Positions 3,873 to 54,019 of a stretch of DNA of 64,000 nucleotides are shown here, piece after piece. Made by a program: the position numbers and the translations under genes. The notes below the pieces were generated by a model. That model saw nothing but the letters and a program-made list of their open reading frames with translations, made no database searches and was not told the DNA's origin. Where the stretch lies: contig NC_079879.1 in NCBI RefSeq assembly GCF_029227915.1, forward strand, positions 30,384,501 through 30,448,500. The letters run 5' to 3'. This stretch comes from Hydractinia symbiolongicarpus. Its lineage: Eukaryota > Cnidaria > Hydrozoa > Anthoathecata > Hydractiniidae. Each line of letters begins with the position of its first letter. Position 1 is the stretch's first letter.

Positions 3873-6800
3873 TCATACTAACAAATTCTTCCAAGGACCC
3901 CACACACCATTATTTAATTTAGGATTAGCTTCTGGATCACGATATGTGGTTCGTCTTGACTTCACCATGCCATCTCTGTATTCTTGCAATCGATCCAACA
4001 TTTTCTTGTAAATAATTGGATGATCTTTTGAAACATCTGTGTACTCACAAGGATCTTCTTTAAGGTTAAATAGGCAAGGTCGATATTTCTTGCCACCACA
4101 GTAAGACACTTTCAAAGGTTTATGTCCACATTTAATACGAGCATCATTTTTTCCTTCGAACCTTACATAATCATTCATGTCATCAGTGAAGGAGTAACGG
4201 CTATTTTCATAAGAATTCTCTACCTCGGGAGGAGGGTACCATCCATCATAAAAACGACCTAAAAACAGAAAAGATTTATTGGCACATACTATAAACACCT
4301 TGTCATATGAAAGATCATGTTGACAAAACAAAACAGCGAAACAAAATGGCACCTTAAAGGTAAACTAAAGTTGATGTTCTCATTTAATGAAATATAAGAC
4401 TTGCTTTTGTAGCGACTCCTTCTAGTTTAACTGCACACATTATATTCAAGAATGATTTTTATTTGCAACGTGCAAACTTTGTCTTAGAATCAAAATCAAA
4501 GAAATATTCCTACTTTGGTTAACTAGTTTCCAGTCCCCTACAATAAGAGCTGCATTATGATAAACATGAGGATCAATATTAACAAGTATTTCATTTCTTG
4601 GTGAAGGGGATTTCTTCTGCAGTGTTTGCCACATATTCATTCCATCAAGATAATGCAAATCTGTTGTGTTGTAACCAGCAACTGATAGTAAAGTCGGCAA
4701 CCAATCAGTGGCATGCATCATATCACGTGATACTTGTCCTGGAGTTTTAAAAAGCTTGCTGTAAACACAAGCCGCAGCTTTGACACCTCCTAAAGTGAGA
4801 ATGATTCGGCAGAAGTAAATAAGAAGTTCTTGTAGGTTCAAAATTCAAATTTGTTTTAATTTGGAATGGTTTAATTTAAGTGCAAAAAATTCAAAATTAA
4901 ACCTAACAAATCAAATTTTCGATGACGATACCGAAGATAAAGACGTTTATTTCATTGATGATAATAGTGAAGGTGATAATTTATAACTGTAATTGTTTGT
5001 GAATTATATTTTTTAAAAAAATTAAAAAATATTGACATTAGAGGACGTTCAAAATTTCAGACATGTTGTTTGTTGGAATCTAATTTTTTTTAGAATTCTT
5101 TGGCTAATGTATGCTAACTAATGTAAAACTAAAAAGGTACTAATATCAATTTAGATAAAAATGTTGAGGTGTCAAAAAAGTGGACGTCACCGTCATGTCT
5201 GGCATGTTTTCGAGAACGAAATTGAATCTTGTAAATACGAGAACAACAGAGCTTTGTTTGCATGTTTGGTACAAGTTTTGTCTTCTGAATTTAAACTTCT
5301 TATTCCAGATTTTGACATACCCTCGTAAACAGTAGTTTTTGCACCACGCAAGGGATAATTTGTTGCCCAATTCATATCCAATCCATTTGCTGGACCACCG
5401 TTATCAGAGGTAAATATTATAATTGAGTTATCCAACATGCCACGCTTTTCCAGTGCTTTGTAAATCTAAATAAAAAAAAATGTCAAAGCAGAAGTATTTA
5501 AAACTGTTTCCACTTAGTTTTCCGCATGCTTTTAAATTCATCATCTCCTTCTTTTTTTCAGCTCTGGTTGAAAATATATAGTGTATCACCCAGCATAACA
5601 TATAGATATTTTTTCAGAAAGTTTGCCAACAATCGACACATATTAAAATTTGATGTAATATTTATTAAAGATAACTACGAAGAAATTTAATGAAGAGAAA
5701 TATATATTTTTCTATATTGCCCTATTTACTATTGGGGTTTCTTTTGGCCCTTGTAAGTATGGCAGGCATGTTCATAAGTTATACTTATGACAAAAAATTG
5801 TAGTACGAGCCAAGTATAAATTGGCATAATTATTCCCTAGCTGACGTCAGCCCTTATTGAATGACATCATGCAGAAATTTCACTATCGTTGAAAATAACA
5901 TTGCCTATCAAAATCGTGTTTGAGAAAGTGCTAGGCACTGGTTTAACACATCTGATATATTTCAGATTAGAATTATAAAATTAATTTTTAAAGAAGAAAC
6001 TAGTCATAAAAATATTAATAGCAAAGTTTAAATTTGCTGCAGGTACTTCCTGCCCTCATACCAAAGGATTAACCATCCTTAGTTAGTCAAGAAGTCTACC
6101 CTCTGAAATTTGATGCGCTGAACAAAAGCCTACTATATATCTTACCATGCCAATTCCATAATCCATTGCTGCCATCATAGCTGCATACTTTCGTCTGCCA
6201 TTATGTTTGATATGTTTGAACTTATCAATCCATTTTTGAGGCGCTTGTAAAGGATCTTCCACAAGGTTAGCACTGTGAACAGCTTGATATGCCACATAGA
6301 GAAACATTGGTTCGCTCAAATTATGACCTTTGATGCGATCTACAGCTTCATGGGAGTACATGTTACTACTATAATTACCCCATTGCGTCCACACATTCTA
6401 AAAATTTTTACATTAAAATTAATAAATTTACAGAATACGAGAAACAAGATATAACTTTTTCATTTTGAAGCTCCTACTTTACTAGTCGAGGGTGTATCCT
6501 TATGTAAATCCAATCCCCAATATCCGTTTGATGCTAATGAATGGTCCCAATAATCTGCTTGACCGCCATAATATCCATAAAAGGTATCAAAACCTCTCCG
6601 CGATGGTGTGTAATCGCGTGCAAAGAAACCAAGGTGCCACTAGAATAAATTAAATTTTTCTGCATCTTCTTAAAGATTAAGTCACAAAAGATTGTTTGTT
6701 TATATGAAGTTTGTAACAATAACGAAATCAGCATAAAAAAACATTATATTTCAACAAAAGCTTTTACAATCACAGTAAACACTCTAAAAGGAGAGACAAA

Positions 6801-7377
6801 CCTTTCCAATAGCATGGGTTTTGTATCCCAATGTTTTCAAATATTGAGGTAGCATTTTTTCTTCCAATCCTACACCCCATGCATTAGCTGCATATATCGT
6901 CCCTGACTGCATACCTAAAAATAAAAAGATATCAATAAAATAGAATAATAGAAGTATCAACTAAAGCATGTACAAGTATATTTAAAAATTTATAAATAAA
7001 GATTAAAGTTACTCACCTGTATGTATTGGATATCTTCCAGTCATAATTGCACTTCTTGTGGGAGTACAACTGGGTAAAACGTAGTAGTTGTTAAGTATAA
7101 TCCCATTATTTGCAAGATAATCAATGTTTGGTGTAGGGATTTGTTTAGAACCATGAAAACTCACATCATTAAATCCCTAAAAAATGAGGATACAGACTTA
7201 AAATTAAACACTTAAAAAATAATAAAAATCACTCATATTATATAAGGATGGAATTTATTTAAACAAAATTTACCAACGCAAACTAACCATATCATCAGCT
7301 ACTATCATAACAATATGTGGGGGAGAGCTTTGCGTCATGTCCAGCAAGACAGATAGTAAAATCGTATATCGAAACAT
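3873..7377 (-). CDS. Arylsulfatase B-like enzyme, copy 1 (eight exons)
   Basis: Exons 7377-7288, 7176-7017, 6914-6802, 6639-6478, 6397-6146, 5465-5321, 4789-4514 and 4258-3873 join in phase to about 527 aa, close to human ARSB (533). Family role: hydrolysis of sulfate esters, often on glycosaminoglycans, in lysosome or outside the cell. Visible signals: hydrophobic signal peptide ([15 protein letters not shown]), metal-binding VADDM, the C-T-P-T-R sulfatase signature near residue 67 whose Cys becomes formylglycine, GK-WHLG across the exon 3/4 junction, the AVHSAN histidine, and TSDNGGP followed by PLRGAK with the Asp-Asn metal ligands and active-site Lys. All catalytic residues appear present, so activity is expected. 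The C-terminal exon is Cys-containing ([12 protein letters not shown]). It is most like copy 2. The substrate cannot be told from sequence. Confidence 0.92.
4920..4986 (+). pseudogene. Possible transposase acidic tail in arylsulfatase-1 intron
   Basis: Inside intron 6 of copy 1, the opposite strand reads an acidic stretch [19 protein letters not shown] followed by Asn-Leu-stop. It resembles the acidic C-terminal tails of the pogo-like transposases at 27.7 kb (FFDVFDDEDDL) and 33.1 kb (FCDFDDETNL). The flanks are AT-rich and give no further protein match. Probably a relic, but it is short enough to be coincidence. Confidence 0.25.
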
Positions 7378-8725: not shown

Positions 8726-11700
8726 TCATGTTTTTTTCAATTCGCACTTTAAAGAGTATGGGAATTTGTTAAATAATGAAAATAATGAAGTTTCTTCCTC
8801 TTTCAATTTCTTCCATGGTTTCCAGACTCCATTATTTAATTTTGGATTAGATTTAGGATCTCGTTTTGTATTTCTTCTGGATTGTACCATTTTCTGCACA
8901 TGTTCCTGCAACCGTGTAAGCATAATTTTGTAAATAATTGGATACCTCTTGGAAACATCAGCGTATTCACAGGGATCACTTTTAAGATTGAATAAGCAAG
9001 GCTGATGACGCTTTCCACCACAATAAGATGGAGATTTTGGCTTTAAACCACAGTGTATTCTTGCATCATTTAATTTGTTGCCAGCAACAAAAGAATTTAT
9101 GTTATTGCGGCTTTTTCCAGGAGGCTGGTACCAACTGTCATAAAAACGACCTAAATGGTAAATGGCATTAATTATAATACATTTGTTTTTTTCGCACACT
9201 TTACCTTTTTAATTAAAATCAAATAAATAAGTTTAGAACCACAAGGAACTTCTAGAACTGAAAAGAGTTTAGAATGTTTACTTAAGATAATTTTTCACAG
9301 CTTATGAATGCCCCACATTGATTGTTCACAAAAAGAATGAAAACATACTTTGATTAACTAATTTCCAGTCTCCTACTATTAAAGCCGCATTCTTATACAC
9401 ATAGGGATCGATATTTACAAGTACTTCTGTGCGTGGCGAAGGATATCCCCGCTGTAAAGTGTTCCACTGGTCCACACCATCCAAATTTTGTAGTTGTTGT
9501 GTGTTATACCCAGCAAGCGAGAGTAGAGTTGGCAACCAATCAGTGGCATGCATTAAATCATGTGATACTATCCCATGGCGTTTTAAGAACTTGCTGTATA
9601 CACACGCAGCAGCTCTGACTCCACCTGTTTAAACGAAATGAAATAGAGAAACAACTTTATCCTACACATTATTTCACTGACAAAAAAATTAAAATGACAA
9701 CCTACCTTCGTAAACAGTAGTTTTAGCACCACGCAGAGGATAATTTGTTGCCCAATTCTTATTCAATCCATTCGCTGGTCCACCATTATCAGAAGTAAAT
9801 ATTATAATTGAGTTATCCAACATGCCACGTTTCTTGAGGGCTTTGTAAATCTGAGTAATCACAAGAATACAAGTGAGAATAGATTGTTTAAAGAAAAGTT
9901 GATGGGATTATATGGTAAGAAAAACCTACTGATACTTACTTGTCCAATACCGTGATCCATATACGCCACCATAGCTGCATATTTTCTCCTGCCAATGTTT
10001 TTTATATGCTTGAATTTTTGAATCCAACTTTGAGGTGCTTGCAAAGGATCTTCCACAAGGTTTGCACTGTGAACAGCTTGATAAGCCACATATAGAAACA
10101 TTGGTTCGTCTATACTGTGATATCGTATTCTGTCAATTGCTTCCATAGAGAAGAGCTTGGTGCTGTGGTTGCCCCATTGTGTCCAAATATGCTAACATGA
10201 AACAGAACTGACTTTTTAACATGAAAGCCATTAAAAAACATACAACCCTCACTAAAATCAAAAAATTTAACAAAAATTACTTCGCTTGTCGTTGGTGTAT
10301 CCTTATGTAAATCCAATCCCCAATATCCATTTGATGCTAATGAATGGTCCCAATAATCTCCATGCCCACCGTAGTGCCCATAAAACGAATCAAAACCTCT
10401 CTGCGATGGTGTGTAATCACGTGCAAAGAAACCAAGATGCCACTAAATTAATAATGAAAAAATAAAATGAGTTTAATGCTAAATATACTGGCCTTTTTTA
10501 GGCCTAGAGAGGGGGGAAACTTTTGATAGGCTTTTCCAAATGGCATCAAACTTTCCCCGTCTTATAGTATATCATAAAAGGAACAAAATTGCACCAATAT
10601 ATTTTTGCTAAGCTTGAAATTACATTAGTTCCAGTAGTCAAATGAAAGTTGTTTAACATATTTTCCGGTTTTTACATAATTTGCATGAAATAAAGTCAAA
10701 AATAACCCGAAAAAAATTTGGGTATTCCACTAAAATCCAAAAATTGTGAAATTGGGTTAATCACACACTCACCATGAGACGATTCCCCTTGATGAAATAA
10801 GGTTCCCTTGAAATAAGGGCCCCTTCTTAAATTTTAATATTTAAAATAAACAATTTTTGCTTCCAACAGTAAAACTGTTGAAAACAAAAATTCGAACTTA
10901 TAGCTTGCCCTGCGTGATATAGTTGATGGTGTAGTCTCACATAATACCCCCTGTGTCATATGAACATATATTTTGTGATACTGTACATTATAAAAGGAGA
11001 AACAAACCTTTCCAATTGCGTGTGTTTTATAGCCTATTTCTTTCAAATATTGAGGCAACAATTTTTCTTCCAAACCAAGTCCCCACGGGTTAGCAGCGGA
11101 TATTGTCCCTGACTGCATACCTGTAAAACAAATAAAAAACTACAAAAAAACCAATGAAAAATAGAACAGTAGGTGTGTTCATTACCTGTGTGTATGGGAT
11201 ATCTTCCAGTCATAATTGCACTTCTTGTGGGAGAACAATTTGGTAAAACGTAGTAGTTGTTAAGAATAATCCCATTATTTGCAAGATAATCAATGTTTGG
11301 TGTAGGGATTTGTTTAGAACCATGAAAACTCACATCATTAAATCCCTGAAAAATGAGGATACCATACTTATTAATACTTTCAATGCTGGTATTTTTTAAT
11401 GTTTACTGCTATAAAAAACACAGTAATACTTCAATACGCAGTTAACTTATTATGTATGATGATTTACTTGGATACAACCAGGGCAGAAAGTGGGTCTTAT
11501 AAGTTATGTCTGGAGGTCTTAACTTATTGTCTTGCCCATTACTGTTTTTACAAATAGGGAAACAGGAGAAAGTGAGCAGTTATTCGAAGGTCTGCTTTCT
11601 TGAGCAGAGGAATCTTTAGGCAAGTACAGTATGCGTGAAAAAAGGATCAGGACTTCTCAATAAAAACATTAATACACTTACCAAATCATCAGCAACAATC

Positions 11701-11780
11701 ATAACAATGTGAGGAGGAATACATAGCCGTACATCTAGTAAAACTAGTCCAATAATCATCCAAAATAAATGTTTAGTCAT
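8726..11780 (-). CDS. Arylsulfatase B-like enzyme, copy 2 (eight exons)
   Basis: Exons 11780-11682, 11345-11186, 11120-11008, 10442-10281, 10191-9940, 9850-9706, 9624-9349 and 9150-8726 give about 543 aa. Exons 2 to 7 have exactly the same lengths and phases as copy 1. It has a signal peptide (MTKHLFWMIIGLVLLDV), VADDL metal ligands, a C-S-P-T-R formylglycine signature near residue 70, GK-WHLG, AVHSAN, TSDNGGP and PLRGAK, so the catalytic set looks complete. The final exon is longer than in the other copies: after the shared [12 protein letters not shown] motif it adds about 28 residues (KKLKEEETSLFSLFNKFPYS onwards). It pairs with copy 1 as one subfamily. Expected to be secreted or lysosomal; substrate unknown. 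Confidence 0.92.
10510..10600 (-). repeat. Dispersed repeat, second copy
   Basis: Inverted relative of the repeat at 7735-7835, here in intron 3 of arylsulfatase copy 2. It includes ATAGGCTTTTCCAAATGGCA and the AAAAGGAACAAAAT motif. Confidence 0.55.
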
Positions 11781-12978: not shown

Positions 12979-15900
12979 TTAACTTAATTTAACCCAAGGC
13001 TGCCACACACCATTATGCAATTTAGGATTCGATAGCGGGTCAACAATGTTTTTATTACGGGGAGGAACCATGGTCTTTCTGTATTCATCCAATCTTGATA
13101 ACATCTGTTTAAAAATGTCAGGATATTCCTTTGACAAGTCGTGATATTCACAGGGATCTTCCTTAATGTTAAACAGACAATATCCATGTTCCTTTGTACA
13201 GTGTGTTACATTTTCTGGAACTTCTCCACACTGTACAGATGCATCAACAAACATTTTCTCAACTAACTCTTTATTTTGGACCTGTGGAGGAGCATACCAA
13301 CCATCCCAATACTTTCCTGTAAAACAGACAAATTTTTATGGTTTTACATTGCCAATATACTGAAAAATATAATTATAACAGGTGGCAATATTACATATCC
13401 AAAAAGAGAATATTTAATTTGAGATAATTTTGATTTTTAAAAATTTGCAAAATTTCTAATCAAATTAATGCTGTATTTACATTATAAAATCACAAGATTA
13501 TACATTGTTTATACTTGATATATACGTTTAAATTTATTTTTTTAAAAAATAAACATGAAAGAGTAGTAAGAACAAAGCGGAATCAAAAAGAAGTGGACTA
13601 AACAGGAAATGTATGTGAACCTTCAGGTCAAGTTGCATGAGTACAAGGAGTCAATACAAAAAAAAACCCACCTTATTACTATACCGATTTAAAATAACAA
13701 AAAGAACAAAAGAAACGGTTGTAAGTGAATTTATTACTACTAAGATATGCACTTAAAGTCATGGTTTATTATGCATGGCAGATTTTGCATAAGAGATTTT
13801 ACCATAAATATGTTCTAAAACATAAAATCAATTGTACCAGGCTTAAAACATGATTTACACCATTGGTCTTTTTAAAAACTTATGCAAGTGTATTCATATA
13901 GTGCAAACATGCCTAAAAACAGTGTAAATTTATTTTAGCAATTGTTATTAATAAATTACCTTGAGGCATTACTTCCAGTAATATTTTCCAGTCACCCATT
14001 CTCAGGGCACCTGTTGAATTATCTACCATATTCAAGAGAACTTCCTTTCTTGAAGATGGTACCATATTCTGTAATGTTTCCCATTGATTAACACCATCAA
14101 GTGGATTGTTAGGCTTGACAGATCCACCAGCCAAATTTACAAATGTTGGTAGCCAGTCAGTTACATGCATTAGATCCATGGAAACTCTTCCAGGACTTTT
14201 CAGAAGTTTACTATGGATGAAGCCAGCTGCTCGCACTCCTCCTGGGTTACAAAAATTACAATGAGTTTAGCAGATACTGTTTTTCCAGGACATACATCAT
14301 AATGAATTGCTTTCAGAAATAACAAAGCTTAATATTACCTTCATACAGAGTTCGTTTAATTCCTCTTAGAGGGAAATTACTAGCCCAATTTAAATCAAAT
14401 CCATTTGCAGGTCCGCCATTATCACTTGTGAAAACAATAATTGAATTTTCAAGCATGCCCTTCTGAAGTAACGCTTCATATACCTAAGAGTATAATAATT
14501 TGTTGCAATGTTATCATGAAAAGTACAAAATAAGTCAAAGTGTGGCTAATTTTGCTGCAAATGTTGTAACTCTATGAAAAAACTTGTCCTTTGAAATCTG
14601 AAGTTGCCTTTTAAATATATCTCATTCCAGGAAATCAACAATGCACAAAATTAACGTAAATTTTAAAAATTGACATTAATTAAATGCCCCTTATTAAATG
14701 TTGTAGTAAATATCCAGAATATTTCCTGATTTTCGTTATCTTCATGCTTTCGTGCCTCGTTCCGGAATATTTTTAGATTAGTATGTGATATGTATGCGAA
14801 TAACCTACTATTCGCATACATATCAGATACTAATCTAAAAATTTATTTTAGGTGTTGTTGGTGGCTTGTAAATGAACACTGTTTAGTGAGATTGCATGAA
14901 AAATCTTTATCAATCCATCTTCAAATTGACATGACTTAGCACCTACATATAGTCAAAGAAAAAGCTTACTCTGCCCACACCAAAATCCATATATGCTACC
15001 ATAGCTGCATATTTTCTTCGGTTTTCATCGCTTATATGTTTGAATTTGTCAATCCAACTTTGAGGAGCTTGTAGAGGGTCATGTTGATTAGCACTGTGCA
15101 CAGCTTGGTATGCCAAGTACAAAAAGAGAGGTTCTGATGTGTTGTGATTTTTTATACAGGTTTCGGCTTCTGTAGTGAATATTTCTGTACTGTAATTTCC
15201 CCATTGATTAAATACAGCCTGCATAATATAATATGCAACATGTCAAAAGGTATTTCAAGATTGTCAACTAATAAAATTCTTAATCTGTTTGACTGTTAGT
15301 AAACTTCGTAAGCTCAACAAGTAACCTTTAAAATCTTTTAGTTTCCCTACAGAGCATTGCATATTGCACAAGTGTAATTATTAAACTTTGTATATCCTAA
15401 GAAGGAGGTTTTAAGGCTAAAAGAAATATAATAAGAAAATTCTCTGATTTTACATTTTTTTAATTAATAAAAATATGAGTACCTTTTCATTTTTATGTAA
15501 ATCTAATCCCCAAAATAATGACTCAGTCGAGTGATCCCAATAATCTGATTTACCATTGTAATATCCGTAGAATGTATCGAAGCCTCTGTATGTTGGAGTG
15601 TATTCTTTTGCAAAAAATCCAAGATGCCACTAAAGAGATAAACATTACCAGATTAGAAAAAAGGAACAAGCCAGTATACTGATGATAATTTATAACTAAT
15701 AATAATGAATCAATTTTTGTTGGAGCTCCAAACTTTCATTACATTGAAATCTTAAGTCATATCTTCTGATTAAAATAATACTTACTTTGCCAATAGCATG
15801 AGTGCTATAGCCTTGAGCTTTTAACAATTCTGGCAAGAAAGTCTCGTTTAAATCAACACCCCAAGGACTAGGCCCATGTATGACCCCATGTTGCATACCT

Positions 15901-16496
15901 GCAAAATGTTTGTATATCAAAGGAGTTGATACAAGTAAGTGTGTAGCATCATATTATTTTATAGATAGTTAAAACACATATTTTCATTGAAATAATTTTG
16001 ATGAGAAAGAATTCATTGCCAGTTTAAAGCTCAAAAAGCCCAAACAATTTTCTATAGAAACTGTAAAATCATATACATGTAACAGTAAATCAACAAACTG
16101 CTTACAAAAATATATAGGGTTATATATACCACCTGAAATACTACATGGAAATTGTACCTGTATGTATGGGATATCTTCCAGTCATAATTGCACTCCTTGT
16201 TGGTGTACAAATTGGTAAAACATAATAGTTGTTAAGAATAATTCCACTTTGTGCAAGTTTATCTATGTTTGGCGTAGGGATTTGTTGGGAACCATGAAAA
16301 CTCACATCATTCCAACCCTAAAAGAGTGTAACATATGAGTAGAAACAAGCATATTTTGATAAAAAAAATTTAAAAACTTAAATGTACGTACCAAATCATC
16401 GGCAACAATCATAATAATATGTGGTTTCTTTTGTTGCAAAGAAAACTTCATTAATGACGTAAAAACCAGATACAAAAAAGCTTTGCGTACACACAT
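12979..16496 (-). CDS. Arylsulfatase B-like enzyme, copy 3 (eight exons)
   Basis: Exons 16496-16392, 16317-16158, 15898-15786, 15629-15483, 15218-14970, 14483-14339, 14241-13960 and 13316-12979 join in phase to about 512 aa. Signal peptide [16 protein letters not shown], metal ligands VADDL, signature C-T-P-T-R near residue 72, GK-WHLG, AVHSAN, TSDNGGP and PLRGIK are all present. It differs from copies 1 and 2 by a shorter exon 4 (147 against 162 bases), a one-codon deletion in exon 5 and a distinct C-terminal exon with [20 protein letters not shown]. It is closest to copy 4, with which exon 2 is nearly identical in DNA. Intron 5 contains a long near-perfect hairpin. Likely an active secreted or lysosomal sulfatase; substrate unknown. 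Confidence 0.92.
14770..14841. repeat. Long near-perfect hairpin in arylsulfatase-3 intron 5
   Basis: Two 33-nt arms, 14770-14802 and 14809-14841, are reverse complements with one mismatch around a six-base loop. The arms contain GATATGTATGCGAATA. The size fits a small foldback MITE or a microRNA-like precursor. It lies between exons 5 and 6. Confidence 0.85.
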
Positions 16497-17304: not shown

Positions 17305-20300
17305 TCACAATGTAACCCATGGTTTCCACACACCATTATGCAATTTCGGATTTGATAGCGGGTCAACAGTTTTATTATTACGGGGAGGAACCATGGTCAT
17401 TCTATATTCATCCAATCGTGCTAACATCTGTTTAAAAATGTCAGGATATTCCTTTGACAAGTCGTGATATTCACAGGGGTCTTCCTTAATGTTAAACAGA
17501 CAATATCCATGTTCCCTTGTACAGTGTGTTACATTCACTGGAGCTTTTCCACACTGTACAGATGCAGCAAGAGGCTTATAATTGACTGTTTTTGTTTTCC
17601 TATGACTTTGTGGTGGAGGATACCAACCATCCCAATAATTACCTAAAACACAGAAGTTTCCATTTGCAGATTAGTTTTGACCTTAAAAGAAAAATTGGAT
17701 GTAAAAGCCAAGATATTGATGTCATCATCATATATCAGGTATGCTTCTTCTGTTACAATTTTTTAATTTTAGATCAGTTTAAGCCTGAAATGGTATAATT
17801 GTTCAGAAATCCAAATTTTGATTTAATTCTCGTTCTGCATACCTTTGTTCCGCTGTTTTCTCCAATTCTCCTCTTGAAAAAACAAGAAGTGTTCGGACTA
17901 AAAATCAGTTAAAAATAATAACCTGTATGACACGAGCCCCAGATGGCACCCAGCACAGAGAATAAAGTCACTTCCCCTGCATTTTTGACAGGGTTTGTAA
18001 ATAAGCTGTAAAATGTTTTTAAAGTAATGAAAATCTCTGTCAAAGCAACATATGGTTACTTTCTTTATGCACAGCTTAGCCAAAAAATTGCAGATAGTCG
18101 AAATCACACACTTGCATTGTTTCCAGACATAATTCTTAAAATCATTTTAGACGCTTGTTAAATTTTGTTTGAATGTCCAAACTAAAGAAATAAAATTTTG
18201 TTATAGTTCTACACATCAATTCTCTTCTAATTAAAAAAAGGAAATGTGAATCGCAACTAGTAAAGCCTTTTTAGGCCCCTAAGGAGTTCATACAATATTA
18301 TTGTTTTACTATCACAATTAGAAAATACACAAATAAAACATTTTATAATACAGCAAACAAATTCAACATGGCAAATTATATTGTTAACCATAAGCATTAA
18401 TTTAATAAACAACAAAAAAGATTAGTTAAGTCACAGTTAGTAGTTGTTAGTAAGTTACTCCTTTGAGCTGTGGCTTAACTTACCCCTGATTTTACCTTGC
18501 TGAATAAGTTTGTAATCACCGACTCTTAATGCTGCATTTTTCCACGTGCTGTTATCAATATTTAAGAGAATTTCCTTTCTTGGAGACGGTGTCATATTTT
18601 GTAATGTTTCCCACTGGTCTACACCATCAAGTGGATTGTTAGGCTTGACAGATCCACCAGCCAAATTTACAAAAGTTGGTAGCCAGTCAGTTACATGCAT
18701 TAGATCCATGGAAACTCTACCAGGATTTTTTAGGAGTTTACTGTGAATGAACCCAGCTGCTCGCACTCCTCCTACCACACAAATTTGTTATACAAATTAT
18801 AAAATTCATTATGACAACCAAACAAAATATCAACATATTTAAATAAACTGTTTGTTACCTTCCCAAAGAGTTGATTTTGCACCACGCAAAGGGAAATTAT
18901 TTCCATAATTCCAATTAAAACCATTTACAGCTGCACCATTATCAGATGTAAATACAATGACTGAATCCTCTAAGATTTCTTTTGCTTTTAATGCATTATA
19001 TATCTAATAATAAAAGATTTTATTTACCTTCATATAAGGAAGTTTTTACTCCTCTTAAGGGGAAATTATTTGCCCAGTTCCAATCAAAACCATTGGCTGG
19101 ACCACCATTATCAGTGGTGAAAACAATGATAGTGTTGTCTAGCATTCCCTTTGCAGCTAACTGATCATAAACCTGTGATGAAATGATGTTAGTGTGTGTT
19201 AGTAAAAATGGATGATTATTTGAGTAAATTATCGTTATATGAAAAAGATGTAAACTAGCAAAAGAAAGTTAGCATTAGTAACGTCAGGTTACAGGTACTT
19301 AAGACTCAATTTTTTGCATTACTCAAAGCCTTTTTTCAAAAAAACAAAAAAACAAAAAAAAAATGGGGACAAAGTATCCTCGGTTAGGACACAGGAGGCT
19401 AAGTGAGAACTGTTAACTAATAATAATAATAAAAAAATGTTATTGTTCTTTTTTAAATAAAATTTTATACACTGAATAAAATACTGGAAATTGCCATAAA
19501 TTAGAAGTAAACTCACTCTTCCAATACCGTAATCCATATATGCCACCATAGCTGCATATTTTCTTCGTTTTCTATGTTTTATATGTTTGAATTTATCAAT
19601 CCATTCTTGAGGCGCTTGCAAAGGATCTTCAGGTCGGTTTGCACTGTGAACGGCTTGATATGCCAAGTATAAAAACATTGGTTCTGATATGTTATGGTTT
19701 CTAATACGATCTTCTGCTTCCGCTGTAAATATTTCTGTACTGTAGTTGCCCCATTGAGTGTAAACAGGCTATAAAAATAGTCATCAAATTTGGCTATACG
19801 TTTAATTAAGGTAGAAATTAAATAATGCTGCAACTTTAAACAAGGTAGTGTTAAAACAAAATTTCAATGTTTAACAAAGAGGTTTGTTTGTATTTGTCAG
19901 TACAAAAAGTAGTAAATGTCAAGGGTTTTTTCCTTTTATGCGGAAGAAAAATACCAAATACTCCAACTGCTCTTTTTTCCATATATTGGTTGATTATACA
20001 GAGCACTTAGAACAAAATGTTTTTAACCTATTTCTTCAATACACTTCTTTAGATAACAATAATTAAATACACTTAGTTCTTTACAGGGGATTTTGTTGGT
20101 TTAATTATTTTCTGCCCTTGTTTGTGAACTCTGACAATGATTTTTCTCATAATAAAGTCTATATATATAATATATATATTAAAACATAAAAAAGCCATCA
20201 CTTATTTTCTTTAGTTACTCCAAAAAGTTGGACTTGCATTAACCTCTAAAATGTCTATATATATCCACAGAGGACAGATGCTTAAAACCACAAGGGTTTT

Positions 20301-23008
20301 TCTTTCTTTATATTAGAAAAAAGATAAAAATTTAACAGTTTGTGGCTCAGGTGAAATTTGCTATATTTATGCAATAATTTTGTTAATTGCAGGCTTAGAT
20401 CTTTAGCAAAAAAAACCAAAAAAAACAAACATTAATTGTAAGTTATTTTGTTTATGTCCATTTTGACTTTAAGGATGCTATTCTACAATTTAATCCTGCT
20501 TCTTCTTAAAAATAGCAAAGTAAACTTTTCGACTAATATCAGCAAAACCAAATCTGTTTGTTTCTTATTACCAAGGTCTAAAGGTAAGTGCCTTCCCACT
20601 TTTAAGTGACTTTTCTCTTATTAGATCTTCCTTCTAACTAAAGTCCCAACTAAAATATAAATTTTTTCCAACCCCTCCCAATCTTTTGGCAAGCTTTTCC
20701 ATATGGTTAGTCACTTGCCCAAACGTTGCGAAAGATTCCTGTAAGTTTCAAGTTCTCATCAAAAGCCAACAAAAATCAATCCACAGTATGTTATCTATAT
20801 GGAAAGTGTTAACATGATCTCCCATTGTTTTTTGGTTAGTGTCAATTATAATACTGTAAGTAAACAAAACAAAAATAGATCAGGTAGATGTTTTTCTTGA
20901 GAGTTAGTATAAGTCATTTGTTTTTGTTACGTACTAGGTTGCGTTCTGAGTGATAAGTGCACCTGTCTTACTACTTTGTATGCCTGTGTGCAGAACTGAG
21001 CTTTCTTACTTTCTCATTTTCATGTAAATCTAATCCCCAATATGTTTCCTCATCGGAATGATCCCAATAATCAGATTTTCCAAGGTAATAACCGTAAAAT
21101 GATTCAAAGCCACGATATGTTGGCGTAAATTCCTTAGCATAAAATCCAAGGTGCCACTATATGAAAAAATAACATTGCTCATAAATCTATAAAAACATTG
21201 GCAGAAAAAGAGAGGTTGAAATATCAATTTTATAGAAATATTCCATTTCAACATCTCTATTTCCACCTTGGTATCTTACTTCTAGATTATGATGCAAATC
21301 AAGTCCACAATATGTAAGATTAACAGCATGATACCAGTAATCAGCCTTTCCACTGTAAAATCCATAGAATGAATCAAAGCCACGATAGGTGGGAGTATAT
21401 TCTTTTGCAAAAAATCCAAGATGCCACTACACGAACAAATATTCAACAATAAGCAAAAAAGTCAATTTAGCTTTAGAAAATTCTCATTGATTTGAGAAGT
21501 TTAATTAGTATAGTTGTTAAGGTGTTGTTTAGTAGGAACTTGTACATTTTTTTGAATTGCTAAAGCTATTTCTGACTTTTTTCCTTGGAAAAATACCTTT
21601 CCCACGCCATATGTCCTGTAGCCTTCGTGTTTTAAATACTGTGGAAGAAAGGTTTCATTTAGCCCAACAGCCCATGCGTTGGGAGCAAAAATAGTGTCAG
21701 TTTGCATTCCTGAAATCAAAACGCTTTAGTTACAAGTTTTACCTAGAAATGCATTAACGAATTCATGTTTAAGAAAAGCTGTGTTACATTTCCAGTAACT
21801 TTTATTAAACTGTCCCCTTCGTCTGATTCCTCAGATATTTACACAGCCAACATAACTTTTATTTGAGAGATTAGATCAGTTTTATGTAACATTAGTGAGA
21901 TATGTGACCGCATCCATGTAAAGACCTTGCTAACGTTTTCAAAAATTCATTGCATAGGAGAGTTTGGTGAGTGTTACACTCTAATTAATTATGGCCCAAT
22001 TTGACTATCCGTTTCTATTGTGCATTTGAGATGCTGATCAAAAAATTTATAGTAAAAAACAGCAATATTATTTGCTTCATAATTCTTTCCAATGGTCTTT
22101 TTTTTAGTGATTTTTTTCACAGGTCTTGCAACTAGTATTTTAAAACACACAAAAATGTTGGTTAGTATAGTTAGTTCGGTCTATACATATACCTTTCCAA
22201 CTGCATGTGTAGAGTAACCTAATTTTTTGAGATATTGTGGCAAAAATTTCTCTTTTAATCCAACTCCCCAAGGCTGAGGTGATTGAACCGTACGTCCATG
22301 CATTCCTACAAATATGTCAACTTATTTATTTAATTTTATTCTAGAAATCCCTTTAAATGTACTATTTTATCCAACACAAAAATTGTCTAACCTGTATGTA
22401 TGGGATATCTTCCAGTCATAATTGCACTCCTTGTTGGTGTACAAATTGGTAAAACATAATAGTTGTTGAGAATAATTCCACTTTGTGCAAGTTTATCTAT
22501 GTTCGGCGTAGGGATTTGTTGGGAACCATGAAAACTCACATCATTCCAACCCTAAAAGAAATTAGAAATTTCTCTTCTTTTTAAGTTATTGTTTCTTCAG
22601 TTAAAAGGCAAAACTAATCATTTCGCATATTTCTGGTTGGTGCTTTTCAATGATTGTCACAAAATACACAAGCTACTGGTTTTTCTTATAATGCGCATTG
22701 AAAACCACTTTAGCACGATCACTACAAGTTTTATACAAATTTGTAAAAGCAAATTGGCTTTAAATTTCTCGATTTAATGTAAAAAATTATTAAACTCATG
22801 GTTATAAATGTTTATTCCTGTAAAGAAAATTGTGCATATTTCTTCACAAAGTCAATTTTCTATTTAATAAAACCAAAGAAAAAAGAAATTGTTTAAAAAA
22901 TTCACACTGTCTTACTAAATCATCAGCAACAATCATAATAATATGTGGTTTCTTTTGTTTTGATGCATCTACCAGCAGAAGTAAGCACAAGATCAGAAAA
23001 ATATTCAT
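17305..23008 (-). CDS. Arylsulfatase B-like enzyme, copy 4, with duplicated alternative exons
   Basis: Constant exons are 1 (23008-22916), 2 (22551-22392), 5 (19768-19517), 7 (18771-18496) and 8 (17642-17305). Exons 3, 4 and 6 each occur twice: 3a 22305-22193, 3b 21709-21597; 4a 21426-21280, 4b 21156-21010; 6a 19172-19028, 6b 19003-18859. Using one of each gives about 507 aa, phase-consistent throughout. Signal peptide [26 protein letters not shown] near residue 68, AVHSAN and the C-terminal Cys-rich exon are in constant exons. The active-site Lys and His of GK-WHLG are split across exons 3 and 4, and the Asp-Asn metal ligands plus RG.K lysine lie in exon 6; all variants keep them. Single-exon choices would therefore yield complete enzymes with different pocket sequences. 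I chose ATG 23008 because it starts the signal peptide; the frame stays open to 23041, but there is a likely acceptor in between. Two degenerate genes merged is the less likely alternative. Confidence 0.88.
17820..18180. other. Insert in arylsulfatase-4 intron 7, unclassified
   Basis: This 850-base intron is much longer than its counterpart in copies 1 and 2. On the minus strand at about 17920-18000 a short frame reads [20 protein letters not shown], a CxxC-x7-CxxC arrangement that hints at a fragment of a transposon zinc-binding protein. No longer match is visible. Confidence 0.25.
18859..19172 (-). other. Duplicated exon 6 cassette (6a, 6b) of arylsulfatase 4
   Basis: Exons 6a (19172-19028) and 6b (19003-18859) are both 145 bases. 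6a has [12 protein letters not shown] and ends SLYEG; 6b has [12 protein letters not shown] and ends TLWEG. Only 24 bases separate them, starting GTAAAT and ending ATTAG on the minus strand, too short for an intron. Read-through meets TAA at once, and joining both would break the frame. One or the other must be chosen. Confidence 0.88.
21010..21426 (-). other. Duplicated exon 4 cassette (4a, 4b) of arylsulfatase 4
   Basis: Exons 4a (21426-21280) and 4b (21156-21010) are both 147 bases, phase 0, and start with WHLGF. They diverge strongly at the end: [19 protein letters not shown] in 4a, [19 protein letters not shown] in 4b. The separating intron is 123 bases. Since 147 is a multiple of three, using both would keep frame, so exclusivity here would need active control. 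Confidence 0.85.
21597..22305 (-). other. Duplicated exon 3 cassette (3a, 3b) of arylsulfatase 4
   Basis: Exons 3a (22305-22193) and 3b (21709-21597) are both exactly 113 bases, start after AG, end before GT, and enter in phase 1 to end with GlyLys. They encode [16 protein letters not shown]...GYSTHAVGK and [16 protein letters not shown]...GYRTYGVGK. Including both would shift the frame (226 is not equivalent to 113 modulo 3), so only one can be used. The intron between is 483 bases. Confidence 0.85.
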
Positions 23009-41601: not shown

Positions 41602-43459
41602 TTAAAACGCCTGTGGTACTTCTACCACACATTTGATAAATAACGAATCATCAAGCAAAAAGTTCTTTTTCTCGATATCCTCGTGCACGATAAAATCATC
41701 AAAACCTACTATAATCGATTTGTCATCTTTATGCGGACGCGATATACCGTTATGTTTTATCGATAGATCACGCACTCGCACCAAGTCTAATCGTTTGTTA
41801 CTATCACTATCTTGACTAATTAAGTAAAATGTATAACACGGTTTGATCGGCCAATTAAGAACAGGATCGAATTCGCCCGCCATAACTCGAACATAAAGTG
41901 ATAAACATTTCTTATCGCCCTTTCCTCGTCCGTTCAAGTAAGCCCAAAGAGAAAGCCGGTAACCGAAAGGACCGGTTGTGAATGGTTCAGATCGGCTCGG
42001 GTCATCGTAACTACCGGACTGAATTTTTTTTAGCTTTTTAGTGAATCCATTGATTCTCCACACGATCTCTCCTCGATGAATCGTATTTAGTCGCGATAAT
42101 AAACACGGACTAGAGCCAGTCGTACCAGTGCTATCATCGGAATTTTTACGAAGTACTCTTTTAGGCGAGTCTTCGCTTAAAGCCACCAACTTCGGATTGG
42201 ATGGAGGTAGTTTAGACGGAGATGTCGCACCATTCTCAACTAAGTGATTTCGGCTAGTGTCGAATTTATTACGAATGCTTTGCATTTGAAAACGCAGCTC
42301 ATCCACAACGGATGCTTGAAGTTCTTTTTGTACCTCAAATGTATTTTGTAATTTTTCCAATTCTTCATTTTTCGCGTCTGCAAGCCCCGTATAAAGGAAG
42401 TTTAATTTTTCAAAGTCGTTTTGTAATTTTTGAAGTTTACTTTCGAAAGCTTTGTTTTTCTGCTGCTCCTCTTTTAGTTTACTTCGTAGTTGCTGCAGTA
42501 CCTCTGATTGTTCTTTGATTAATTTTACGGCAGACGATAAATCTTGTTCATTATCATTAGTTGAACCTTTATTTTTGTATCCCTGCCAAAAAAAAATTAA
42601 AAATACTAGTGGAATTCAGACATATCAAAACACAAATTATTACTGCAAGAAAATTAATTTATTCGTTTGGGTAGACTGAAAAACACGTTTATGTAATCCT
42701 TAGATCGTTTTCTTTTGTGAGTCATCAAACGCTATGAGAGTCATCAAACGCTGTGAGAGTCATCAAACGCTATGAGAGTCATCAAACGCTGTGAGAGTCA
42801 TGAAACGTTGTAAGGCTTCTCTCAAAGACGTTAGTGGTAAAATTTCAACGTGACTTATTTCGTGTATGGGTATAATGAGGCTACATGTTTTTTTATAACA
42901 AACATACTTCTTGGGTTCTGGCTGGATGCTTCCTAACTTTAAAGGATCTTTTAAAAATTTACAGCCTTGCTTTTTATGCCTTAATAATGATTTCAGCAGG
43001 AGCCCTTTTAATTTATCAATTTAGATAATTCATAATTTTTTTCTGTACCTAAAATCGTGTTTTTTATATAAGAACTCAAAGTGAAAATAGGCGACAGAAA
43101 GCGCAACTAAATTAAAACGAAGTTCAAGTCATGAATATGTACAAAAAAATAAGTCAAAACCAGGCTTACAATATCTCCGTCGGTGTCTAGCAGCCGTTCT
43201 TTTTCGTCACTCATCTTCGATATAAGCACTTGATCGTTCTAAAACAAAAACAGTATTTCCATTGCATATAAGCTAGAAATATGTGTACGTAACATACACA
43301 GTAATAACAAAATAAAAAATTATCTGCACGCGGTACTGTTATTCACAAATCTACAACTTAAAAATTAAACAGAAATTTGATATGAATCTTAATGAGGGGC
43401 TTACAAATCAATATTACCTCATTGCATAGGACGATGTAGTTGTTTTTAACAGCAAACAT
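41602..43459 (-). CDS. Coiled-coil MATH (TRAF-C) domain protein without RING
   Basis: Exons 43459-43418, 43238-43170 and 42582-41602 join in phase 0 to about 363 aa. The protein starts MFAVKNNYIVLCNE, then MSDEKERLLDTDGDI, a coiled coil (EQSEVLQQLRSKLKEEQQKN onward, about residues 50-150), a Ser/Pro linker, and a C-terminal MATH/TRAF-C domain from about residue 209: EIVWRINGFTKKLKKIQSG, GYRLSLWAYLNGRGKGDKKC, LSLYVRVMAGEFDPVLNWP, and GFDDFIVHE near the end. TRAF-C domains trimerise through the coiled coil and bind receptor tails in TNF-receptor/NF-kB type signalling (family knowledge). No RING or TRAF zinc fingers are encoded in the exons I can find, so it may be a RING-less adaptor; further upstream exons cannot be excluded. 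Exon 3 and its domain are certain; the two small exons rest on splice and phase agreement. Confidence 0.8.
42719..42811. repeat. 19-bp tandem repeat in MATH gene intron 2
   Basis: About 4.7 copies of GAGTCATCAAACGCTATGA, alternating CTATGA and CTGTGA. It lies within 140 bases of the acceptor of exon 3. One copy junction contains TGAGTCA, an AP-1-type sequence, which may be incidental. Confidence 0.85.
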
Positions 43460-50671: not shown

Positions 50672-53660
50672 ATTATTATTATTATTATTATTAAAAGACT
50701 ATATTCTGGCATATCCATATACAAATATACATAGCTTTTCATCCAGAAAATTTTAAACAAGGAGATTAATAAAATTTAAAATATATGTATATATATACAT
50801 TATGCTTACACTAAAAGAAATTTCTAATATATATTAAAAAAAATACTAATGATAATATTGTTAAAAGAAACGGACGAGAAAACAAAAACAAAAACAAAAA
50901 CACAGAAGAGAAAGTGCGCGATTTGAGTAAGGAAAAGTCAATTAACGCATAACAACAGAATGATCCACAAAAATTTACTTAAATTTCTTTCAGTAAAAAT
51001 AATTTTGTCTCTCTTTTAAATGTTATCAGCTTTTTAATCGAGCGAATGTCTTTAGGAAGTCGATTGAAAGACGTAGTTGTTACATCTTCGAAAGTGTTTT
51101 TGCGAAGTGATTTTTTTAATCGAATTTCGTCAGCATTTCGAAGAGTTCTTTTGTGAACAACAATTTCATTTTTCAAATACTTTGGCCAATTATTCTGATG
51201 AACACTTTTAAAGGCTGTGATCATCAAATGCCATTCTCGTCTTTGTTTAATAGGTAACCAACCTAAACGTGTTATATCTTCAGTATGGCTGTACTTATTC
51301 CATACAAAGCTGGCTGCACATATCATCACTTTATGCAGCTTTCGAATTTGGATGGCTGTTAATGGAATATAAACAGTGTCGTTAAAGTCTAATTTTGACA
51401 AGACTAGCATTTCAGCTAATTGTTTTCGTAACTTAAATGGTGCCATGCGTTTTAGTTTACGTAATATAGATAAGATGCCATGACAACACGATACTACACT
51501 CTGTACATGATCATTCCAACTTAGGTGTTCATCTAATTTAACACCCAATACAGACCATGTTGGAACTCTTTCAATCTGGAAGTCATCCAGTTTGATATCA
51601 GTACAATCGAGGTCGTTGAGATTGTGTCGTTTTGACATTTGTGATGTTGAAAACACCATTAACTTTGTTTTTCCTTGTTCAGAACAAGATTGTTATTTGT
51701 AGACCATCTTTGAAGTTGACTTATATCTCCGTTTATTTGTTCCTTTGCCTTCGCAAGATTATTTAATTTTGTGGACGTAAACAAAGTGGTGTCGTCAGCA
51801 TACTGTAACGTACTCGTTGTCAAATGCATTTCCAGGTCAGTGACGTATAAATTGAAAATAACAGGGCCTAATATTGACCCTTGCGGCACACCAGATGTGA
51901 TGTTACAAAATTCAGAGGTCTTATCATTAATTCGCACAATTTGTTTTCTGCCACACAAGTAACTCAAAATTAGTTCAACAAACTCTTTGGAAAAACCGAT
52001 TTGGTTGAGTTTCCTCATTGTAGTTTCATATTGAACAGTATCAAAGGCTTTCGAAAAGTCAGCTAATACTACAAGACTGATTTCGTTTTTACTCATTGCT
52101 TCTTTGATATCCGTTCTAAGTTTCATCAACAAAGTAGTCGAGGAGTGTCCTTTTCGGTACCCGAACATCGTTTCGGAATATAAAGATTTCTCATCGATAA
52201 AGATTATCATTTGTGTAAGGATAAGACGTTCAAATACTTTGGATAAAATAGGAAGGATGGAGATCGGTCGTAGTTCTTTTATTGATGTAGGAACATTCAC
52301 TTTTGGAATAGGTGCGACTCTTGCCACTTTCCATTGACACGGGAAGCATTTTTTCTCAATGCACGTATTTATAATATGTGTTAGAACAGAAGAAATTTCA
52401 TTTGCCAGTAATTTAACATATTTCACTGGTATATCATCAAACCCAGTTGATATATCGTTATGTAGTCCTTTAAGTTCTTTAAGTACCTCCTCATACTTAA
52501 CATGTCTGAGTTGAAACATTTTGGAAGTCGATGGTGGTAATGTTTGGAGTACTTCCTTTAAATCAATTTCAGATTTTGGAATTGATCCAGTAACTCGCTC
52601 AGCTGTTCCGGCAAAAAAAGTGTTTACACTATCAGCGTCAAAATGAAGAGGCTTCGAAGGAGGATGTAAAATTCGATTGATAGTGTTCCACACTTCTTTT
52701 GAGTTTTTAGAACTAAGTGCTTTTCTATAAAAGGAAACTTTAGCTTTCTTGATCTTTTTCTTAACAGAGTTTTTAAGTTGTCGAAATTCGTTCCATATCA
52801 TTTGATCGTTAGTTTCATGAGCAAGTTTTCGAAGTTTATTTCGCTTCGTTTGGTCACTTTTTATGTTTAAAGTATGAATCCATGGAGATGGTGGTCTTGT
52901 TATTTTTGTTCTTCTTAACGGGGCATGTCTATCAATGCAATCTTGCATGAACTTGTGAAGTATCTCCACTTTTTCTTCTGGATCATCTATAGCGTATATA
53001 ACTGATGTCGGTAGGTTCGAGAAATCCGACACAAAAGATTCCCTATCAAACTGCCTTTCATCTCTTATCATTTTATATCGAGGTTTAAACTTATCGTATT
53101 TAATGTTGATGATAGCGTAAGGTCCATCATGGTCACTAATAGTTTCGCATGGTAATACATCAGTATGTGCGATCTTGGTATTATTGTTAATTATCATATG
53201 ATCGATCAATGTTGCGCTTAAAGGAGTCGTCCTGGTTGGCTTTGATACTATCTGTTTAAGGTTGAATGCAGATAAAATATTGTTGTACTGTCTTACTTGG
53301 CAACATTCTGGTTTGAGAAGATTTATGTTTATGTCCCCTGTTATAAGTAGCAGGCCATCCCATGTTGTTTGGATATAAGTTATCAAATCTTCAAATTTAG
53401 TTAACCAGTCAGAAAAGGAGATGATTCTTTCCGAGCGGTATATGACCCCAAGAAGTAGTTTACTATGCTTGTTTCGGCCATCTACCTCGATCCATATATG
53501 CTCTAAATTTTCGTACATATCATTAATATCCTTTCGAATGCGATATTTGATCAAACTGTTCACATAAATTCCAACACCCCCTCCTCGAATTTGGTCTCTA
53601 TTCACATATTCCATTGAGTAACCAGGTATACGGACGTATTCCATTACTTCCTCATTATTC
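50672..53660 (-). mobile_element. CR1/jockey-type LINE, 5'-truncated
   Basis: Runs right to left. The 5' end is cut inside the endonuclease domain near 53.66 kb; the 3' end is an (AAT)n tail at 50672-50700. Between lie a long ORF for endonuclease and reverse transcriptase and about 280 bases of 3' UTR. A single frameshift and the 5' truncation mark it as a dead but fairly young copy. Confidence 0.85.
50979..53644 (-). pseudogene. LINE ORF2: endonuclease and reverse transcriptase, frameshifted
   Basis: Two frames, 53644-51659 (661 aa) and 51659-50979 (226 aa), are parts of one protein. The endonuclease part shows GGGVGIYVNS, LLLITGDININLL and ETISDHDGPYAI. The reverse transcriptase part shows RPISILPILSKVFERLI, the VVLADFSKAFDTVQ and LQYADDTTLF catalytic aspartates, and SGVPQGSILGPVIFNLYV. 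The second frame carries the thumb-like region (LGVKLDEHLSWNDHV) and C-terminal domain. The break falls in an A-run near 51672, consistent with loss of one A. A complete copy would reverse-transcribe its own RNA at a nicked target. Confidence 0.9.
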
Positions 53661-54019
53661 TCTTCTATTCTTCAATATAAATAATAATAATAATATTATA
53701 AATTAATAATAGCATCAAGTAATAATATCAAGTAATGATATAATCAACAGGCCACACACGTGTATCTGTCCAATTTTTTGGCTGACTTAGGAAGCCTGAC
53801 ATCCCCAAATTGGCACAGGCATAACACAGGAAAATCTAAGTATCTTGGTGAGAAATACTATGTTTCCGTATAATCAACAACAATATACGCATAAAGAGCA
53901 ACACAACTACACAATGTTAATTGTTATAATTTTTATACAAAAGGTATATCCCACAACTTTGGAACCTCTTTTAGGTTAGCCATGCTGGAACACCCATCAC
54001 ACCATCCCACTTACAGGAA

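Follow-up and report, generated by a model that had tools for sequence, protein, structure and literature searches.

Several clusters of mutually exclusive exons can reside in a single gene, as is described for muscle myosin heavy chain (PMC3912159). Arthropod N-cadherin offers a second precedent, in which three pairs of mutually exclusive exons lie in one gene and expression of the variants has been demonstrated (PMC2655722). Among sulfatases, no gene with mutually exclusive exons was found in the literature, as judged by titles and the beginnings of abstracts.

Here we describe a gene of the colonial hydroid Hydractinia symbiolongicarpus with a comparable layout. This gene, termed gene A, lies in a stretch of 64,000 nucleotides that constitutes the window of our analysis (contig C5:30384501-30448500 of a 480.9-Mb assembly). 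Gene A is probably one ARSB-type sulfatase gene in which exons 3, 4 and 6 have each gained a second copy, and from which one of each is used per transcript.

Architecture of gene A

Gene A is found on the minus strand at positions 23008-17305 of the window, and it is a complete ARSB-type arylsulfatase gene of 11 exons, among which exons 3, 4 and 6 are doubled. The exons follow the order 1-2-3a-3b-4a-4b-5-6a-6b-7-8 with GT-AG at every border, and the members of each pair are equal in length (113, 147 and 145 nt) and in phase, and are free of in-frame stops. An earlier note on this DNA had claimed doubled exons with this order and these lengths and phases and with intact splice sites, and all of this was confirmed on the sequence. 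These are the marks of tandem-duplicated exons, namely neighbouring internal exons of similar sequence and of equal length and frame, with GT-AG borders and no stop. When one exon of each pair is spliced in silico, all eight combinations yield a 507-residue frame whose sole stop is terminal. The features of the gene are as follows.

17305..23008, minus strand: gene A, ARSB-type arylsulfatase; 8 of 11 exons would be used per transcript, giving 507 residues
22916..23008, minus strand: exon 1, 93 nt, with the start codon
22392..22551, minus strand: exon 2, 160 nt, with the CTPTR formylglycine-type motif
22193..22305, minus strand: exon 3a, 113 nt, whose last residue is the Lys of GK; long tree branch
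21597..21709, minus strand: exon 3b, 113 nt, alternative to 3a and nearer to other hydrozoan-like exon 3 sequences
21280..21426, minus strand: exon 4a, 147 nt, with WHLG; fast-evolving
21010..21156, minus strand: exon 4b, 147 nt, with WHLG; slow copy
19517..19768, minus strand: exon 5, 252 nt, constant, with a His aligned with ARSB H242
19028..19172, minus strand: exon 6a, 145 nt, with TDNGG and RGVK; slow copy
19004..19027, minus strand: spacer of 24 nt from the 6a donor to the 6b acceptor; the same in the second array copy
18859..19003, minus strand: exon 6b, 145 nt, with SDNGAAV and RGAK; fast-evolving
18496..18771, minus strand: exon 7, 276 nt
17305..17642, minus strand: exon 8, 338 nt, with the stop codon

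A second donor of exon 7 lies 12 nt further on (exon end 18484), and its use adds the residues KIRG. Exon 2 of gene A is identical to exon 2 of its neighbour, paralogue B, at 158 of 160 bases.

Paralogues and a second array

Three paralogues, B, C and D, are located downstream of gene A. They match P0002, P0015 and P0014, which, like P0001 for gene A, are public proteins of Hydractinia symbiolongicarpus. Each of the three has single exons at the places that are doubled in gene A, as the earlier note had claimed.

12985..16478, minus strand: paralogue B, with single exons 3, 4 and 6; matches P0002; ends are tblastn edges
8804..11771, minus strand: paralogue C, with single exons; matches P0015; ends are tblastn edges
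3882..7356, minus strand: paralogue D, with single exons; matches P0014; ends are tblastn edges

The window was also scanned with exon profiles, in six frames and on stop-to-stop pieces of at least 12 residues. Exons 3, 4 and 6 were each recovered in five good copies (two in gene A and one each in B, C and D). The scan gave no convincing further copies or remnants of these exons in the window, with next-best E values of 1.2, 0.36 and 0.14.

The same contig carries a second array, in inverted orientation, at approximately 25.93-25.95 Mb, which is 4.4 Mb from the array in the window. All 11 exons are present there with GT-AG-type borders at matching places and an identical 24-nt spacer, and the exon order 3a-3b-4a-4b-5-6a-6b is found in both arrays, which are 97-99.7% identical over their aligned pieces. 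The second array could have arisen by true duplication, or it could represent another haplotype incorporated in the contig. The latter possibility lends some substance to the concern that gene A itself is an assembly artefact merging two alleles or genes, and the earlier note had named a merger of two alleles or genes as an observation that would overturn its reading. However, the members of the exon pairs share only 60-75% of their DNA sequence, as against 97-99.7% between the array copies, and both arrays have the same order of six exons, such that an artefact of this kind is extremely improbable.

Comparison of the two array copies gives 2 differences over the 810 positions of the alternative exons, 4 over 1119 in the constant exons and 28 over 3771 in the introns, and all eight insertions or deletions are intronic. 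The alternative exons have fewer differences, as expected, but this deficit is by itself not significant (Poisson 0.061, Fisher 0.080).

When the Hydractinia genome was searched with the exon 4 peptide, 14 matches were obtained, comprising two per copy of gene A and one per copy of B, C and D. The remaining matches are on contig C10, where three lie near 14.99 Mb (one whole, two partial) and one lies elsewhere. The locus at 14.99 Mb (L011) is a rearranged and decayed relative in which both copies of exon 6 contain a stop, and it shows how unconstrained copies appear in this genome.

Catalytic residues, a public protein and a structure model

A Pfam run on P0001, the public protein that matches gene A, returned a Sulfatase domain. 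This domain, the CxPxR motif and the metal-binding and catalytic residues, the last judged by the list of positions used here, identify the gene product as ARSB-type. All ten positions that we take to be the catalytic positions of ARSB, and against which gene A was scored, align between gene A and human ARSB, which is the top PDB match by both sequence and structure (1fsu; its chain sequence reads A at the formylglycine position). We know of no alternative catalytic exons in human ARSB. The predicted product would be secreted or lysosomal, as is usual for the family.

The swapped exons account for 136 of the 507 residues, and 52 of these differ between versions. Five of the ten catalytic positions fall within them, namely K145 (exon 3), H147 (exon 4) and D300, N301 and K318 (exon 6), and all five are held in both members of the respective pair, in agreement with the earlier note. 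Because all versions keep these residues, the variants are probably active enzymes, and they would differ in their grip on the substrate. The location of half of the catalytic positions is, at the level of sequence, in keeping with the proposal in the earlier note that the variation lies around the active-site pocket. Up to eight enzymes might be encoded by one gene.

P0001 is labelled isoform X1, and it corresponds to the second array copy spliced as 3a-4a-6b plus four residues (KIRG), which fit the second donor of exon 7. It is the only public protein whose exon use could be read, and it has one member of each pair. The cluster to which P0001 belongs has 17 members, possibly derived from both gene copies, and this count says little about the number of annotated isoforms because two gene copies and three source databases contribute to it.

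The structure model of P0001, representing the 3a-4a-6b form, has a mean pLDDT of 90 and a pTM of 0.92. Its best PDB match is human 4-sulfatase 1fsu (TM 0.84/0.90, 41% identity), and thus a 1fsu-like fold is predicted for this form. Model confidence drops to a pLDDT of 62 at residues 281-290, within exon 6b, and is lowest at residues 411-420 (49).

Relatives for comparison comprise 228 distinct proteins, taken as the best 120 each of 7987, 7060 and 4133 matches, which give a partial view of animals. In a structure alignment of 47 of these 228 proteins, exon 6b lacks a glycine that follows Asp-Asn-Gly and is present in 46 of 46 relatives (G279A), and it also lacks P280, which is held by 44 of 46. 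The stretch of low confidence at 281-290 adjoins the lost glycine. The loss of near-invariant residues together with the low model confidence suggests that 6b forms might be weak enzymes. However, the DNGAA sequence of 6b recurs in P0194 and P0216 among the 228 relatives listed.

How one exon of each pair could be chosen

The earlier note read the pairs as mutually exclusive. We infer from the architecture that this is the most likely reading for use in RNA, with the best support for exon 6, the next best for exon 3 and the least for exon 4.

For exon 6, only 24 nt separate the 6a donor from the 6b acceptor, whereas the exons of the four genes are otherwise at least 62 nt apart (the edges of B-D being approximate). 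For scale, a human survey took donor-to-branch-point distances below 50 nt to be a potential source of steric interference (PMC5740500). Should 6a be read on into the spacer, a stop follows immediately, and joining 6a to 6b loses the frame. The choice would therefore be forced mainly by space, the exons being too close for 6a-6b splicing, with a stop as the consequence of read-through.

The spacer between 3a and 3b is 483 nt long, and joining these exons causes a frameshift. The choice of exon 3 would thus be enforced at least by frame, since joint use runs into stops and the resulting RNA would probably be decayed.

Exon 4 is the weakest case, as the 123-nt spacer between 4a and 4b is ordinary for the array and joint use stays in frame, adding 49 residues. 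Because of this, its choice must rest on splicing regulation. Perhaps exon 4 is alternative yet not strictly exclusive, such that some transcripts contain both 4a and 4b, or neither, in the manner of cassette exons, which a length of 147 nt, a multiple of three, would allow. However, joint inclusion would double the WHLG segment within the fold, skipping would remove the catalytic His, and P0001 carries a single exon 4. Cassette-like use is accordingly unlikely, and we favour exclusive use for this exon as well.

Base pairing between introns, as in docking and selector sequences, was rejected as a candidate for the control of exon choice. None of seven intron pairs exceeded 100 shuffles each, in what is a weak test with one sequence, and the best pair was equalled by 10 of 100 shuffles. 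No docking-site control was found in these introns for exons 3 and 4.

Constraint and unequal rates in the duplicated exons

Within pairs, DNA identity is 60% (exon 3), 75% (exon 4) and 67% (exon 6), and the dN/dS ratios obtained by Nei-Gojobori counting are 0.25, 0.29 and 0.21, respectively. The corresponding dS values are 1.6, 0.75 and 1.4, and are high for exons 3 and 6. In a simulation of decay, one copy was mutated randomly to the observed divergence in 5000 trials for each of six runs (three exons, two directions). A stop-free frame survived in 5-13% of trials, and the observed protein identity was reached in 0 of 5000 trials in five runs and in 3 of 5000 in the sixth. The pairs are therefore intact and constrained to a degree that exceeds chance.

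The members of each pair have not changed at equal rates. Trees of the single exons, made with 26 of the first 28 protein ids (P0001 and P0009 left out), have end branches of 0.12 for 3b, 0.054 for 4b and 0.26 for 6a, as against 0.45 for 3a, 0.46 for 4a and 1.11 for 6b. Identity to the nearest relative is 79% (3b), 88% (4b) and 82% (6a) versus 68% (3a), 78% (4a) and 63% (6b). A broad profile was built from 211 of the 228 listed relatives, leaving out 13 that lack exactly one copy of each of exons 2-7 as well as P0001, P0002, P0014 and P0015. It gives the same polarity for exons 4 and 6 and the opposite for exon 3 (3a 69.9 bits, 3b 65.6 bits). In exons 4 and 6, one copy is thus conserved (4b, 6a) while the other changes faster (4a, 6b), and for exon 3 the conserved copy is probably 3b and the fast one 3a.

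Such asymmetry, along with the near-invariant residues missing from 6b, would be anticipated if only one exon per pair were working and the other were a decaying relic. However, all six exons are intact in both copies of the locus, with dN/dS of 0.21-0.29, and true decay looks like L011, with its stops in both copies of exon 6. Moreover, the fast copies occur in a public protein and the slow copies are conserved, and so neither set looks dead. Relic duplication is therefore a very unlikely account, and we retain the reading in which both members of each pair function.

Another possibility is that the gene switches between two coordinated states, a conserved 3b-4b-6a enzyme and a diverged 3a-4a-6b enzyme, and does not freely mix eight forms. 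The short branches of 3b, 4b and 6a and the long ones of 3a, 4a and 6b fit this idea, and P0001 uses exactly the three long-branch exons, a suggestion that comes from a single example. Yet that example is one protein, no simple positional rule is followed, since exons 3 and 4 have the diverged copy in front and exon 6 has it behind, and the broad profile reverses the polarity of exon 3. In addition, amphioxus gene models mix alternative exon 3 and exon 4 segments (see below). We consider a two-state switch doubtful, though it deserves more weight than either cassette-like use of exon 4 or relic duplication, and we keep to the reading in which up to eight forms are possible.

The order of the exons fits the claim in the earlier note that three separate single-exon duplications took place, while sisterhood of the copies is neither supported nor rejected. 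AU tests with pair members as sisters gave p values of 0.336 (exon 3), 0.425 (exon 4) and 0.0856 (exon 6) on short alignments, and on trees of 38-50 columns these tests reject neither sisterhood nor a grouping of the pair with B. In the exon 3 tree, 3a groups with C- and D-type exons and others with 89/85 support, although its row is long and the alignment has 38 columns. Exon 3a may have originated by capture from a paralogue exon.

Alternative segments in other animals

Counted automatically, 8 of the 228 relatives listed carry an exon segment in multiple copies. Two of these, P0040 and P0094, look like gene fusions. Exon 3 and/or exon 4 is doubled in proteins of Branchiostoma lanceolatum (P0035), Mya arenaria (P0052), Petrolisthes manimaculis (P0077), Procambarus clarkii (P0178), Tigriopus californicus (P0185) and Mactra antiquata (P0076, second copy partial). 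By inspection, exon 4 also occurs twice in B. belcheri P0123, which the automatic count missed.

The ARSB-like isoforms X7, X8, X9, X10 and X12 of B. lanceolatum (P0062, P0057, P0053, P0046 and P0045) differ in the alignment only at exons 3 and 4, with three versions of each exon and five of the nine combinations represented. As in gene A, alternative versions of exon 3 and exon 4 are combined in these amphioxus isoforms. Unlike in gene A, exon 6 is single and the exon 4 segment seems to end earlier, as judged from gene-model proteins. The statement in the earlier note that no sulfatase has been described with combinatorial exon choice consequently holds for the literature found, but not fully for public databases, where P0001 already bears an isoform label and five amphioxus models combine segments.

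Crustacean ARSB-like proteins (Procambarus P0178/P0184, Petrolisthes P0077, Tigriopus P0185, Scylla and Portunus) have two versions of a segment formed by exons 3 and 4. Three gene models repeat this segment in a 3-4-3-4 block, which differs from the 3-3-4-4 order of gene A. The crab proteins Scylla P0192 and Portunus P0193 are 93-98% identical in exons 2, 5 and 6, but 50% in exon 3 and 70% in exon 4, and the exon 3-4 segment of each resembles one of the two versions in P0178. Among bivalves, Mya P0052 and P0116 are identical in the alignment save for an extra exon 4 stretch and an 18-residue start. Of eight aligned spider proteins, two (P0075, P0100) have one type of exon 3 and six have another. 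By these protein comparisons, alternative exon 3 and exon 4 segments appear in amphioxus, crustaceans and bivalves, and probably, across species, in spiders. The points at which exon 4 runs on in the gene models and the 3-4-3-4 order of crustaceans suggest, by inspection, independent origins.

Pairs of relatives were compared as well, for which the 13 of 228 without exactly one copy of each of exons 2-7 were left out. Among 110 pairs at least 85% identical in exons 2 and 5, identity lags by more than 20 points in exon 3 for 27 pairs, in exon 4 for 30 and in exon 6 for none. The pairs are not independent, as both partners are amphioxus proteins in 10 of the 27 and in 20 of the 30, and 8 of the 30 include P0123, in which the two copies of exon 4 were taken for one. 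Looser limits give 59 rows for exon 3, 38 for exon 4 and 2 for exon 6, both of the latter involving P0001. Lower conservation may be a general property of exons 3 and 4, and where no single model has both versions, the proteins by which these cases are known may come from tandem gene copies with conversion.

The fusions P0040 and P0094 aside, Hydractinia provided the sole instance of exon 6 being doubled inside one gene among the 228 relatives listed.

Comparison with known systems

One possibility is that ARSB-type sulfatases have repeatedly diversified their substrate pocket through alternative exons carrying the catalytic Lys and His. Hydractinia would have gone furthest by gaining a third pair with the metal-binding Asp-Asn and the second Lys, and up to eight sulfatases with different specificities for sulfated glycans might then arise from one gene. 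We put this forward tentatively, with somewhat more doubt than belief. If confirmed, one gene would provide a small panel of sulfatases, and with it a natural experiment on the adjustment of specificity while the chemistry stays unchanged. Exon duplication may recur at the exon 3/4 site.

A lead concerning biological role comes from the Hydractinia arylsulfatase Hys0052.52, a predicted target of miR-2022 with expression in cnidocytes (PMC10548089). A role of gene A in stinging-cell capsules is at this stage a lead only. A search of the window for a miR-2022 site, made with an assumed miR-2022 sequence, gave no match with up to three mismatches, and this neither identifies gene A as Hys0052.52 nor excludes it.

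Gene A resembles arthropod N-cadherin in having three exon pairs in one gene, which are mutually exclusive there and probably so in gene A. Unlike gene A, N-cadherin is an adhesion protein and not an enzyme, and expression of its variants is established (PMC2655722). Muscle myosin heavy chain resembles gene A in that separate clusters of alternative exons occur in one enzyme. Similar solutions arose there independently several times, and some animals use several genes instead (PMC3912159). Muscle myosin heavy chain is a motor ATPase, whereas gene A, as read from its DNA, encodes a hydrolase whose catalytic residues are carried in the swapped exons. What appears to be new, as judged by the literature listings, is a sulfatase with probable mutually exclusive clusters, in which catalytic residues lie within the swapped exons and two of these exons appear to recur as alternatives across phyla.

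Possible exon exchange and splice variation in the sulfatase array

Genes A and B, the arylsulfatase gene with doubled exons 3, 4 and 6 and a neighbouring paralogue in which these exons are single, have nearly the same exon 2, with 98.8% identity across 170 bp (22390-22559 versus 16156-16325). The boundaries of this match lie no more than about 8 nucleotides from the exon edges. Exons 4a, 4b, 5 and 6a of gene A are only 77-81% identical to gene B at the DNA level, and there is no DNA match between gene B and exons 3a, 3b and 6b. This mosaic, wherein one near-identical exon is set among diverged or unmatched ones, suggests gene conversion on the scale of one exon between the two genes.

There are also two possible donors for exon 7 of gene A, and they are spaced 12 nucleotides apart (18484-18496). 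The longer form of the exon adds the residues KIRG, in agreement with the public H. symbiolongicarpus protein P0001 (isoform X1).

Other frames further along the window are as follows.

41602-42615, frame encoding a MATH domain (TRAF-type)
51659-53671, LINE-like retrotransposon, frame for the reverse transcriptase
58283-58693, frame with C2H2 zinc fingers

Related loci elsewhere in the genome

A second copy of the sulfatase array is located in inverted orientation on the same contig, 4.4 Mb from the first (G000:C5:25936297-25951989; loci L009 and L010). Likewise, a sulfatase of contig C10 is found twice with equal scores (L001 and L002). These twofold loci therefore represent either recent duplications or haplotypes that were built into the contigs.

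Contig C10 also carries the following locus.

14986501-14996000, L011, related to gene A, decayed and with an internal duplication

Its exon 6 is present in two copies, each of which contains a stop codon. An intact protein similar to this locus is present among the public relatives (P0003).

Relatives in other animals

The sulfatase gene model P0009 of the pearl oyster Pinctada imbricata carries the segment with the formylglycine cysteine ten times in tandem, with a repeat unit of 34 residues. In one copy this cysteine is replaced by arginine, and in one copy the arginine of the motif is replaced by serine.

Proteins P0026 and P0038, both from one relative, show no differences in exons 5 and 6 but are only 61% alike in exon 3 and 74% alike in exon 4. 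Judging from these sequences, this pair may be one more instance of alternative exons.
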